From assembly GCF_000017505.1 (NCBI RefSeq), contig NC_009675.1:124001-188000 (forward strand): 64,000 bases of DNA. Reading direction: 5' to 3'. Within the stretch, counting starts at the first letter, position 1, and each line of letters begins with the position of its first letter. The notes under the pieces were generated by a model, which saw only the letters and a list, made by a program, of their open reading frames with translations, did no database searches and was not told where the DNA came from. Below, in pieces: positions 28,094-34,218 of the stretch. Both the position numbers and the translations under genes were made by a program. The stretch comes from Anaeromyxobacter sp. Fw109-5. GTDB lineage: Bacteria; Myxococcota; Myxococcia; Myxococcales; Anaeromyxobacteraceae.

Positions 28094-28268
28094 TCTCGTC
28101 CTCCCAATGGACTCGGGCCGCTCCGGTCTGGAGCAGGGCGCGAGGGGCCGCCTGGATGAGCGTGCCGGCCCTGGGTGGTAGTGGGGCCCCCGACCATCCG
28201 GGAGCCACGGGAGCGCGGGTGATTACCCGAAACCCCCCGGGTAGTCAAGGGTTCCGCGCGGAAGCAGG

Positions 28269-28285
28269 CGGGGGCGCAGCCCCCG
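28269..28285 (-). terminator. Hairpin at the prs stop
   Basis: CGGGGGC (28269-28275), GCA, GCCCCCG (28279-28285): a perfect 7-bp stem directly after the prs stop. A second small repeat TACCCG/CGGGTA lies at about 28224-28243. No U-tract; they may only attenuate transcription into rplY. Confidence 0.4.
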
Positions 28286-28286
28286 T

Positions 28287-29252
28287 CTAAACGAACAGGC
28301 TCGAGAGGGAGTCCGCGGAGTGGATGCGGCGGACGGCCTCGGCGAGCAGGCCGGCGATCGTGAGCGAGCGGATCTTGCGGCAGGCCTCCGCCGCGGGCCC
28401 GAGCGCGATCGTGTCGGTCACCACCACCTCCTCGATGGGGCTCTTCACGATCCGCTCGACGGCGGGGCCGGACAGCACCGCGTGCGTGGCGTACGCGTAG
28501 ACCTTCACCGCGCCCTTGTCCATGAGCGCGTTGGCGGCCTGGGTGAGCGTGCCGGCGGTGTCGATCATGTCGTCGAGGAGCACGGCGATCTTCCCCTGCA
28601 CCTCGCCGATGACGTTCATGATCTCCGCGACGTTCGGCTTCGTGCGCCGCTTGTCCACGATGCCGAGGGTCGAGCCGAGCCGCTTCGAGTAGGCGCGGGC
28701 GCGCTCCACGCCGCCCGCGTCGGGCGAGACGATGACGACGTTCTGCGCGTCGCCGTCGAAGCGCTTGCGCATGTGCTCGAGCAGCACGGGCGCGGCGTAG
28801 AGGTGGTCGAAGGGGACGTTGAAGAAGCCCTGGATCTGCCCGGCGTGCATGTCCATCGAGACGACGCGGGTCGCGCCGGCGGCCTCGATGAGGTCGGCGA
28901 TGAGCTTCGCGGTGATGGGCACGCGCGGCGCGCTCTTCCGGTCCTGGCGGGCGTAGCCGTAGTAGGGGAGCACCGCCGTGATGGAGCCCGCCGACGCGCG
29001 CTTCAGCGCGTCGATCATGATGAGGAGCTCCATCAGGTTGGTGTTCGCGTCGGGCGAGGTGGACTGCACGACGTAGGTGTCGAGGCCGCGGACGTTCTCG
29101 CCGATCTCGACCTGGATCTCGCCGTCCGAGAACCGCCCCACCGTCGCGTGCGCGAGCGGCCGGCCGAGCTCCTTGCACATCGCCTCGGCGAGCTTCCGGT
29201 TCGAGTTGCCAGAGAAGACCCGGTAATCGGGCCGAATTCCGTGAAATTCCAT
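28287..29252 (-). CDS. prs: Ribose-phosphate pyrophosphokinase
   Basis: 321 residues. Makes PRPP from ribose-5-phosphate and ATP for nucleotide, His and Trp synthesis. Shows [18 protein letters not shown], the ATP-binding flexible loop ([14 protein letters not shown]), the metal/PRPP segment [17 protein letters not shown] and the PRPP-binding loop [16 protein letters not shown] 29252 with GGAG 7 nt upstream. Its product is used by the two phosphoribosyltransferases encoded 3 kb away. Confidence 0.97.
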
Positions 29253-30699: not shown

Positions 30700-31119
30700 A
30701 TGTCCCGCCTCTTCGCTCGCCTCTCGGTCCCCTGCCTCGCCGCCCTCGCCGTCGCCGCCAGCGGCTGCGCCTCCGCGTTCGGCCCCGAGCCGGTGACGCG
30801 GCTCTCCGAGGCGCCGCAGGCGCAGCTCTCCGCGACCGTGAAGCAGGAGGTCGCGCTCAGGACCGGCCCCGACAAGCTCGCGCACGTCGTGGAGCGGCTC
30901 CCGGCCGGCGCGTCCGTCACCGCCTCGGATCGAGCGGTGCGCGGCTATCGCCGGGTCCGCACCGAGGCGGGCCGCACCGGCTACGTCGAGGAGTCCGCGC
31001 TCGAGGTGGGCGCCGCCGTCGCCGCGCCGGCCACGCCCGCGGCTCCGGCTCCGGCTCCGGCGGACGGCGCGCCCGCCGCGGCCGCTCCCGAGGCGGCGGG
31101 ACAGCCGGTGGCGAACTAG
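30700..31119 (+). CDS. Small lipoprotein with bacterial SH3 domain
   Basis: 139 residues. Lipoprotein signal with Cys at about residue 23 (AVAASGC), a short linker, an SH3b-like domain at about 45-105 (VALRTGPDKLAHVVERLPAG, GYRRVRTEAGRTGYVEESAL) and an Ala/Pro tail. SH3b domains often bind peptidoglycan or peptides. ATG 30700 is fixed by the strong Shine-Dalgarno. It stands alone and faces the M32 peptidase. Confidence 0.82.
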   Translation: MSRLFARLSVPCLAALAVAASGCASAFGPEPVTRLSEAPQAQLSATVKQEVALRTGPDKLAHVVERLPAGASVTASDRAVRGYRRVRTEAGRTGYVEESALEVGAAVAAPATPAAPAPAPADGAPAAAAPEAAGQPVAN

Positions 31120-31165
31120 CCTCGGCGCGCGGGAGAGACCTCGCGCGCGCTGCACCGTCGCTGGC

Positions 31166-31192
31166 GGCCCGGGGGCTCGTGTCCTCCGGGCC
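31166..31192. terminator. Hairpin between convergent genes
   Basis: GGCCCGGGGG (31166-31175) pairs with CCTCCGGGCC (31183-31192) through 10 bp including one G-U, loop of 7. Lies between the lipoprotein and M32 stops. Confidence 0.55.
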
Positions 31193-31208
31193 GTCTCGCG
31201 GTCGGCGT

Positions 31209-32828
31209 TCAGCCCGCGAGCGAGAGGCCGTACAGCGCGCCGTACTTGGTCTTCACGTAGCGCTCGAAGTCGCGGTCGGTGAGCCCTTCGCCCGTCGCGT
31301 CGCGAACGATCTCCTCGGCGTCCTTGCGGCGCCCCACCCGGTAGACCCGCTCGGCGAGCCACACCCGCAGGGGCGCGAGCTCTCCTCGGGCGAGGGCCTC
31401 GTCGAGGCCGGGCAGCGACCGCGCCGCCGCGGCGTACAGCGTCGCGGCGTACAGGTTGCCGATGGTGTAGGTCGGGAAGTAGCCGAGGTCGCCCCAGGCC
31501 CAGTGGATGTCCTGCAGCACGCCCTCCACGTCGTGGCGCGGGCGGACCCCGAGGAGCGCCTCGCTCCGCGCGGCCCAGGCCTCGGGCAGCTCGCGGACCG
31601 CGAGCGCGCCGCGCAGCAGGCCGAGCTCGAGCTCGAACCTCAGCGCGATGTGGAGGTTGTAGGTGACCTCGTCGGCCTCGACGCGCACGAGCGAGCGCCG
31701 GACGCGGTTCGCGGCGCGGTGGAAGTCCTCGGGCGCCACTCCGGCGAGGCGAGGGAAGCGCGCGGCGAGCCGCGGCAGGAAGGCGCGCCAGAACGGGAGC
31801 GAGCGGCCGACCAGGTTCTCCCACAGGCGCGACTGCGACTCGTGCAGCCCCATCGACGGCGCGGCGCACAGGAGCGAGCGCCGGTCCTGGGCGGGGAGGT
31901 GCTGCTCGTAGAGGCCGTGCCCCGCCTCGTGGAGGGTGGAGAAGATCGCCGAGAGCGGCTGGTCCTCGTGGATGCGGGTGGTGATGCGCACGTCGCCGGG
32001 GTCGAGGCCCAGCGTGAAGGGGTGCACCGAGCGGTCCTGCCGCCCGGCGGCGGGATCGAAGCCGAGCGCCTGCAGGAGCTCGAGCGTGAAGCTCCACTGG
32101 GCCTCGGCGTCGAAGCGGCCCGCGAGGAAGCCGTCCTCCGGCGCGGGCGCCGCGTCGATGGCCGCGACGACCGGGGCGAGCCAGCCCGCGAGCCGCTGCA
32201 GGATGGGCGCGAGCCGAGCGACGCGCATCCCCGGCTCGTAGCCCTCGAGCAGCGCGTCGTAAGGTTCAATCTTGCCGGGGGGGCGCGAGAGGCCGCGCCC
32301 CCCCGGACCCCCCGCTCGCTCCGGCGCAGCCTCCTCCGGCTGCGCCTGCGCTCGCCGCTCCAGCATGGGCAGCAAGGCGTCGGCCTGCTCGCGGCGGAGC
32401 GCGAGGAGCCGCTCCAGGCTCGGCGCGAAGCGCGCGAAGCTGCGCTCCGCGCGCGCCGCCTTCCAGGCGTCGATCCCCTCGGCCTGCGCCTGCGCCAGCG
32501 CGCGGACCAGCTCCTGCGGCACGCGCGCGGCGCGCTCGTGGTCGAAGCGCAGCGCCCGCAGCGCCGCGGCGCGATCCGGGTCGCCGTCCGCGTCGCGCTC
32601 CGCCCGATCCAGCGCCTCGGCGACCGCGCGCGAGGTGAGCCGCTCGTGCAGCGCCGCCTGCACCACGGCGAGCTGGTCGCCGCGCGCGGCGGCGCCCCGC
32701 GCCGGCATGAAGGTCTCCTGATCCCACTGAAGGAGGGAGACGGCGCCTCCGAGCGCCCGCACGTCGCTCATGACGGCCGCGAGCGTCTCCCACGCGGCGC
32801 TCCGGGGGGACGGGGCGGGGTCGGCCAT
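31209..32828 (-). CDS. M32 family thermostable carboxypeptidase
   Basis: 539 residues, a metallo-carboxypeptidase of the Taq/Pfu type acting in the cytoplasm. It has LLQWDQETFMPARG, the zinc motif HEAGH (His300, Glu301, His304), the HESQSRLWEN region and the DIHWAWGDLGYFPTYTIGN motif. Family members are usually about 500 residues; the excess is a Pro/Gly/Arg insertion of about 30 residues before PYDALLEGYEPGM, encoded by two palindromes at 32277-32346. The reading frame is intact. The start is ATG 32828. The gene is divergent from the phosphoribosyltransferase pair across 54 bp. Confidence 0.94.
   Translation of the reverse strand: MADPAPSPRSAAWETLAAVMSDVRALGGAVSLLQWDQETFMPARGAAARGDQLAVVQAALHERLTSRAVAEALDRAERDADGDPDRAAALRALRFDHERAARVPQELVRALAQAQAEGIDAWKAARAERSFARFAPSLERLLALRREQADALLPMLERRAQAQPEEAAPERAGGPGGRGLSRPPGKIEPYDALLEGYEPGMRVARLAPILQRLAGWLAPVVAAIDAAPAPEDGFLAGRFDAEAQWSFTLELLQALGFDPAAGRQDRSVHPFTLGLDPGDVRITTRIHEDQPLSAIFSTLHEAGHGLYEQHLPAQDRRSLLCAAPSMGLHESQSRLWENLVGRSLPFWRAFLPRLAARFPRLAGVAPEDFHRAANRVRRSLVRVEADEVTYNLHIALRFELELGLLRGALAVRELPEAWAARSEALLGVRPRHDVEGVLQDIHWAWGDLGYFPTYTIGNLYAATLYAAAARSLPGLDEALARGELAPLRVWLAERVYRVGRRKDAEEIVRDATGEGLTDRDFERYVKTKYGALYGLSLAG
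32277..32346. repeat. Two tandem palindromes inserted in the M32 coding sequence
   Basis: Palindrome 1: GGGGGGGCGCG (32277-32287)/CGCGCCCCCCC (32294-32304), perfect 11-bp arms, loop of 6. Palindrome 2: GGCGCAGCC (32323-32331)/GGCTGCGCC (32338-32346), perfect 9-bp arms, loop of 6. Together they encode a low-complexity insertion in the protein. They resemble the intergenic G-run hairpins at 1475 and 28269, suggesting a palindromic repeat family. Confidence 0.6.
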
Positions 32829-32835
32829 GGCCGCT

Positions 32836-32874
32836 CATTTAGGCCGAGGCATCCGGGGGAACAAGCATTATGCT
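32836..32874. promoter_or_regulatory. Divergent -10 boxes in a 54-bp intergenic region
   Basis: Plus strand TATGCT (32869-32874) lies 8 nt before GTG 32883. Minus strand TAAATG (32841-32836) lies 7 nt before the M32 ATG. There is no room for leaders, so both transcripts would be leaderless. Confidence 0.5.
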
Positions 32875-32882
32875 CCCCGCCC

Positions 32883-33698
32883 GTGCGAGACCGCAGCTAC
32901 GACAGCGTCCCGTTCCGCCTCTCCGAGATCGAGCACCGCTACGGCCCCACCGTGCACATCGTCGCGAACCCGTTCCTCCTCGGGCACCTCGCGACGCTCT
33001 GCGCGAAGGAGACGCGCCAGCCCGAGATCACCCGCCTCGTGCGCATCCTCTACGAGGACCTGATCCGCACCGTCCTGAACGTGGAGTTCCCGCGACGGAG
33101 GGTCTCGGTCCCGACGCGCATGATCGACAGCTCCCCCCAGGGCATCTTCGAGGGAGAGGTCATCGACCGCGCGGTCCGCGCGGTGACGGTGAACATCGCC
33201 CGGGCCGGAGCGCTCCCCTCGCAGGTGGCGTACGACCTCCTCAACGAGACGCTGGAGCCCTCGCTCGTGCGGCAGGACCACATCATCATGAGCCGCATGC
33301 TCGGCATGAACGAGGAGGTGGTCGGCGCCGGCATCGGCGGGATGAAGATCGGCGGCGACGTGGACGAGGCGTTCCTGCTCTTCCCCGATCCCATGGGCGC
33401 GACGGGCAGCTCGCTCGCGACCGCGATCGAGACCTACAAGACGAAGGTCCCCGGCAAGCCCAGGCGGATCGTGAACATCCACCTCATCGTCACGCCCGAG
33501 TACCTGCGGACCATGACCGCGGCGCACCCCGACGTCGTGGTCTACGCGATCCGGGTGGACCGCGGCCTCTCCCCGCCGGAGGTGCTCGCCACCGTCCCCG
33601 GCACGCGCTGGGACGAGGAGCGCGGGCTCGACGATCACCAGTACATCGTCCCCGGCGGCGGCGGCTTCGGGGAGATCCTGAACAACGCCTATGTCTAG
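32883..33698 (+). CDS. Divergent uracil phosphoribosyltransferase-like protein
   Basis: 271 residues, longer than typical Upp (about 208). The C-terminal half aligns by eye with UPRT: the PRPP loop DPMGATGSSLATAIETYK in place of the usual DPMLATGGSAI, then HLIVTPEYLRTMTAAHPDV and YIVPGGGGFGEIL in place of YIVPGLGDFGDR. The central region contains an insertion around MLGMNEEVVGAGIGGMKIGG. It may be a uracil salvage enzyme or may have a different base or no activity. GTG 32883 is supported by a TATGCT box 8 nt upstream. It overlaps hpt by 8 nt, so a salvage-type operon is likely. Confidence 0.72.
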   Translation: MRDRSYDSVPFRLSEIEHRYGPTVHIVANPFLLGHLATLCAKETRQPEITRLVRILYEDLIRTVLNVEFPRRRVSVPTRMIDSSPQGIFEGEVIDRAVRAVTVNIARAGALPSQVAYDLLNETLEPSLVRQDHIIMSRMLGMNEEVVGAGIGGMKIGGDVDEAFLLFPDPMGATGSSLATAIETYKTKVPGKPRRIVNIHLIVTPEYLRTMTAAHPDVVVYAIRVDRGLSPPEVLATVPGTRWDEERGLDDHQYIVPGGGGFGEILNNAYV

Positions 33699-34218
33699 CG
33701 GCGCGAGCAAGGTCGAGGTCCTCATCTCCGAGGCGGACCTCCAGGCGCGGGTGAAGGCGCTCGGGGCCGAGATCACGCGCGATCACGCGGGCCGCTCGCT
33801 CGTCGTGATCGGCGTGCTGAAGGGCTGCTTCATCTTCCTCGCCGATCTGGTGCGGGCCATCGACCTGCCCATCTCCATCGACTTCATCGGCATCTCCTCG
33901 TACCAGGGCACCCGCTCGACGGGGGTCGTGCAGATCACGAGCGATCTCACCCGGCCCATCGAGGGGAAGGACGTGCTCCTCGTCGAGGACATCGTCGACA
34001 CCGGCCTCTCCATGCGGTACCTCCTCGACAACCTGGCGACGCGCAGGCCCGCCAGCCTCCAGGTCTGCGCGCTGCTCGAGAAGCCGTCCCGGGCGGTCGT
34101 GAAGGTCCCCATCCACTACCGCGGGTTCGAGATCGGCGACGAGTTCGTGGTCGGCTACGGGCTCGACTGGGACGGCAAGATGCGCAACCTGCCGTTCATC
34201 GGCGTGCCGCGGAGCTAG
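33691..34218 (+). CDS. hpt: Hypoxanthine phosphoribosyltransferase
   Basis: 175 residues. Converts hypoxanthine/guanine plus PRPP to IMP/GMP. Motifs: VVIGVLKGCFIFLADL, the flexible loop (ISSYQGTRSTG), the PRPP-binding DVLLVEDIVDTGLSM and the C-terminal GLDWDGKMRNLPFIG. Full length. The ATG at 33691 overlaps the upstream gene by 8 nt. Confidence 0.95.
   Translation: MSSGASKVEVLISEADLQARVKALGAEITRDHAGRSLVVIGVLKGCFIFLADLVRAIDLPISIDFIGISSYQGTRSTGVVQITSDLTRPIEGKDVLLVEDIVDTGLSMRYLLDNLATRRPASLQVCALLEKPSRAVVKVPIHYRGFEIGDEFVVGYGLDWDGKMRNLPFIGVPRS

Follow-up and report, generated by a model that had tools for sequence, protein, structure and literature searches.

Palindromic repeats that are read as part of proteins were, to our knowledge, once called unique to Rickettsia, bacteria that are hard to manipulate. 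According to a review (PMC10969869), in-frame fusion is unusually frequent for the Rickettsia palindromic elements (RPEs), and it is conceivable that something similar happens in other organisms. Intragenic GTAG/CGTC REPs were identified by Di Nocera et al. (2013) in several species, many of them in replication and repair genes, in DnaE2 and in tRNA synthetases (PMC3733652); no Anaeromyxobacter or Myxococcales family is named in the main text of that paper. As RPEs and intragenic REPs were described earlier, the kind of element treated here is already known. The family itself is new and apparently undescribed: the open literature, subscription papers being outside the search, gave no account of such elements in Anaeromyxobacter or other myxobacteria, and no description of an untagged two-hairpin build, restricted to Anaeromyxobacteraceae and read in two coding frames.

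The window (the whole stretch of DNA analysed, 64 kb) corresponds to positions 124001-188000 of the single 5,277,990-bp contig of the genome labelled G000. The host gene (31209-32828, reverse strand) encodes an M32 (carboxypeptidase Taq) metallopeptidase of 539 aa, identified with Pfam PF02074 (510.7 bits) and aligned with its relatives and with solved M32 structures. The whole palindromic element is located at 32270-32356 on the forward strand, opposite to the coding strand, and has dispersed copies elsewhere while missing from the M32 genes of relatives. It spans residues ~158-187, RRAQAQPEEAAPERAGGPGGRGLSRPPGK, in agreement with the encoded stretch of about 30 residues proposed in the earlier note. 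A C-rich linker joins the 13-bp hairpin to the 9-bp one, after which comes the tail TGCGCTCGCC. Hairpin 1 (32275-32306, forward strand), with a variable G-run/C-run, has arms at 32275-32287 and 32294-32306 around the loop AGAGGC and was recognized from the sequence and the DNA fold. Hairpin 2 (32323-32346, forward strand), supported by pairing and covariation, has arms at 32323-32331 and 32338-32346 around the loop TCCTCC and is the stem of a constant 41-nt module (32315-32355, forward strand), CTCGCTCC-hairpin-TGCGCTCGC, with a mean column identity of 88% across 68 distinct copies. Both stems are perfect when read from the sequence and the ORF has no internal stop with the element in frame, so the two perfect in-frame palindromes reported for this gene are confirmed; the arm length of 9 bp given for the second also stands, whereas the first arm, given as 11 bp, is really 13 bp.

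The Peptidase_M32 match of Pfam falls in two stretches, the main one beginning at residue 187, directly past the insert. The folding energy of 32270-32356 as single-stranded DNA is -34.1 kcal/mol, whereas shuffled sequences average -25.2 (z -3.9) and 0 of 200 fold as well. In 31000-34000 no Rfam covariance model matched at E<=1, and a non-coding RNA family was rejected on this basis. The AlphaFold model of the M32 protein, made without alignment, has a mean pLDDT of 39.9 and is uninformative. A benefit of the insert to the enzyme is neither needed nor indicated.

The M32 insert is very probably a copy of a palindromic repeat that is small (~60-100 bp), non-autonomous and spread through the genomes of the Anaeromyxobacteraceae, a family of soil myxobacteria; inside genes the repeat would survive only when inserted in frame and with a harmless peptide. 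The M32 copy is the only one inside the window. BLAST of the stretch against G000 gave ~13 copies (12 at E<1e-7 plus weaker ones), and up to more than 40 per genome are present in relatives of the family Anaeromyxobacteraceae. With the module pattern at up to 3 mismatches the counts were 10 in G000, 20 in A. terrae SG22 (G003), 11 in A. soli SG29 (G006), 43 in G008 (a 66%-complete MAG), 10 in G011 and 15 in G014. The same pattern gave 0 matches in nine genomes from other families of the same order, and the reversed control pattern gave 0. The exact module pattern, searched in 84,980 species genomes, was identified in 43 stretches, all of them Anaeromyxobacter or Myxococcales MAG contigs, with no match beyond Anaeromyxobacteraceae. 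It was absent from viral contigs, and a phage vector was rejected for this reason. The GC-rich palindromic element tolerating insertion in coding DNA that the earlier note had proposed is thus the best description of the insert, with copies elsewhere and an M32 site that is empty in relatives. The note had also pointed to similar G-run hairpins at ~1475 and 28269; these hairpins are real, but the constant module is absent from both and they were therefore rejected as copies of the family. Located at 1463-1500 and 28265-28290, they are intergenic and GC-rich, and are probably ordinary terminators or members of another palindrome family.

The general layout of a copy is hairpin 1, then RNCCCCCC, then the constant 41-nt module around hairpin 2. 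The arms of hairpin 1 are a G-run and a C-run; they differ widely between copies in length and inner sequence and yet remain complementary. Among the 68 distinct modules the 9 pairs of the hairpin 2 stem are paired in 95.9% of cells, and 7 of the 9 show changes on both sides; 0 of 500 shuffles reached any of five covariation measures. These compensatory changes in a paired stem imply that the structure is kept while the letters drift, which fits either selection on the folded strand or palindrome-correcting repair. The covarying stems also speak against a different origin of the insert, in which replication slippage or a local expansion of GC-rich DNA would have produced a lineage-specific low-complexity loop and the palindromes would have formed on the spot. 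This origin would agree with the GC-rich region and with the Pro/Gly/Arg-rich encoded residues, but it can hardly be credited, as the 41-nt module is repeated ~13 times in G000 and is present in many unrelated genes and spacers, and the dispersal of the copies refutes it.

Orthologous genes of relatives contain full, partial and empty sites. At the M32 site the full insert was identified in G000 only and a shortened remnant in A. soli (G006), whereas A. terrae, G007, G009 and the aligned relatives at the level of the order have no insert there. An insert common to all relatives, which would speak against insertion, was therefore not the case, A. terrae and every more distant aligned relative being empty. 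A separate in-frame M32 copy, ~70 codons upstream, was identified in G011, a member of another genus, and judged from the alignment it is independent of the one in G000. The PyrE site is full in G000, G010, G014 and G019, retains one half in G006 and is empty in eight other family members. In HutH the element is present twice in tandem in G000, each copy encoding 27 residues, and G003 and G006 retain decayed remnants. The PheS site is full in G007, G008 and G019, with the hairpin-2 half only in G006 and the hairpin-1 half only in G003, and is empty in G000 and others. In a small tree G000 groups with G006 (support 0.90), and the M32 and PyrE sites in this sister pair therefore fit one gain each. 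Filled PheS and PyrE sites occur in distant lineages, with empty sites between them and common junction residues. For PheS, and for PyrE in distant genera, this is compatible with repeated insertion at the same codons, with allele transfer or with an ancient insertion followed by clean losses; the last two are favoured because the junction residues are common. A different, unrelated-looking insert was observed at the same PheS site in a myxobacterium of another family (G028, L260), which suggests that this site is a permissive loop.

Of 118 module copies, approximately 31 lie in frame within genes, many of them essential. Coding frames were called solely from flanking codon usage; the count includes a doubtful N-terminal case (L174) and comes from a copy list that predates the addition of the NifD copy. 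At the sequence level, predicted proteins with the insert carry 25-30 extra residues. The hosts, assigned with NCBIfam or Pfam, include PyrE, HutH, an ABC-F ATPase, RlmD, PheS, LeuS, MutS, a beta-aspartyl peptidase, HolB and PheT, as well as Mfd (two sites), Top6B (two sites), GlnE, a YoaA-like helicase, GyrA, DnaE2 and a MutS-like ATPase. In G019 a single gene for subunit B of topoisomerase VI (L151) contains the element twice, in frame and at separate positions. In NifD of G000 (L009, ~3,529,676) the copy is located in an N-terminal extension and a downstream start is possible. The L009 frame begins just ahead of the copy and also reads a second, different palindrome (GGGGACGGAGTGTCCCCCC).

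In 85-93% of copies five of the six frames contain no stop, and nevertheless 23 of 25 sites use two of them, encoding RAQGQPDEAAPERAGG or PLAPGQPHPAAPALA. By site, RAQGQPDEAAPER is used at 16, LAPGQPHPAAPAL at 7 and the remaining open frames at 1, 1 and 0 (chi-square p 2e-7 versus uniform), the frames being counted by eye and the acyl-ligase sites in G011 and G007 being taken as one. The avoided frames would encode strongly basic, hydrophobic or Cys-containing peptides, and the bias would reflect purifying selection on the encoded protein. Selection would remove copies inserted into protein cores or in other frames, and the surviving coding copies would be read as hydrophilic Pro/Ala/Gly/Glu-rich, probably unstructured loops. 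An inserted copy could later decay by in-frame deletions or undergo tandem duplication. The dominance of two frames, the recurrence of the RAQGQPDEAAPERAGG peptide and the location of ~10 of 25 sites in DNA replication, repair or topology genes are also what is expected from a mobile peptide module kept for a function of the protein, for example a binding or localisation tag shared by replication, repair and translation proteins. Such a module is highly improbable given that just the above fraction of copies is in frame inside genes, that two unrelated peptides are in use and that copies decay and vanish from orthologues. For annotators, the recurrent RAQGQPDEAAPERAGG peptide is not to be taken as a domain.

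Copies that are not intragenic are located nearer to the 3' than to the 5' ends of genes (34 of 57 versus 14 of 45 adjacent; Fisher p 0.005), and closeness to 3' ends has likewise been reported for REPs. This placement favours the view that the repeats are mainly nucleic-acid signals, REP-like hairpins at 3' ends, with intragenic copies as by-products that spread by homologous recombination of filled alleles, and the junction residues of PheS and PyrE shared by distant lineages point the same way. Against it, the bias of non-intragenic copies towards convergent over divergent placement (10 to 4) is not significant (p 0.18), and some intragenic sites are limited to one genome or to a sister pair, such as M32 in G000 and G006 and, separately, in G011. 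It is regarded as rather unlikely, and a non-autonomous repeat tolerated in frame is preferred.

Regarding mobility, the form of this repeat that moves would be a folded single strand, as has been suggested for REPs and RAYT-type Y1 transposases, and such movement would account for hairpins that persist although the sequence of their arms drifts. No genes were found to travel with the element. G000 contains a RAYT-like (REP-associated tyrosine transposase) gene of 317 aa at 3,811,085-3,812,035 (1396-2346 of L109), whose protein scores 54.7 bits against NF047646, below the cut-off of 80. Flanks of up to 1.5 kb on each side of 20 Y1-like loci, this gene included, contained no copies, and a RAYT neighbourhood was rejected because no copies adjoin Y1-like genes. 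A family-wide, untagged two-hairpin class that repeatedly re-inserts in frame at the same codons of essential genes (PheS, PyrE), is limited by protein-level selection to just two tolerated disordered peptides and is moved in trans by a Y1/RAYT-like enzyme is proposed as a tentative possibility.

Compared with the described systems, the Anaeromyxobacteraceae element is RPE-like in kind, as the earlier note had suggested in principle; a sequence relation to RPEs is not expected. It shares with RPEs, and with RPE-1 to RPE-3 especially, short palindromic repeats in many copies, a large share of them in frame in unrelated housekeeping genes, a conserved encoded peptide and the comparison of sites between species (PMC10969869, PMC3767692). 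Here the palindromic copies are dispersed, the in-frame insertions occupy open genes with insert-free orthologues (M32, PyrE, HutH, PheS) and the preferred frames, each with its conserved peptide, account for 16 plus 7 of the 25 sites. Differences are the length (~90 bp versus 100-150 bp in RPEs), the GC-rich free-living host, the use of two preferred frames in opposite orientations and the separate variable and constant hairpins. With the GTAG/CGTC REPs it shares dispersed intragenic palindromes with the same bias to replication and repair genes, DnaE2 and tRNA synthetases, and a possible RAYT link (PMC3733652). It differs from them in combining two hairpins in one unit, roughly double the size of a REP, and in that most copies are without either tag: GTAG was identified beside hairpin 1 in 4 of 107 copies and CGTC in 9 of 107, with 0 beside hairpin 2. 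Neither a tag at the hairpin end nor repeats flanking the RAYT gene, the two marks of those REPs, is thus characteristic of the family. Bacterial MITEs (ERIC, BOX, RUP and others) are similarly short, non-autonomous, dispersed and sometimes located within ORFs, but the terminal inverted repeats and target-site duplication of MITEs are not recognised here. No terminal inverted repeats were seen in the element, and a target-site duplication is not definable, the flanks of aligned sites being too diverged.

These genomes provide a large set of coding palindromes in free-living, culturable bacteria, in genes such as those of gyrase, tRNA synthetases, Mfd, MutS and a polymerase subunit. With culturable hosts and with full, half and empty states in close relatives, the absorption of 25-30 residues by proteins, the site-directedness of insertion and the movement of the element become directly testable.

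Some further copies have a particular arrangement. Those at L166 (contig C101 of G003) and at L012 (4,025,586 in G000) adjoin apparent tRNA genes, and the former locus comprises three copies in a row, ~155 bp apart, with a shortened form containing hairpin 2 only. At L065 and L067 (G002 and G005) the copy follows the apparent first codons of tsaD (TRVLAIETSCDE) and an inverted repeat, CCTGCGACGAG, is found around the element, an arrangement that may represent a broken or duplicated gene start.
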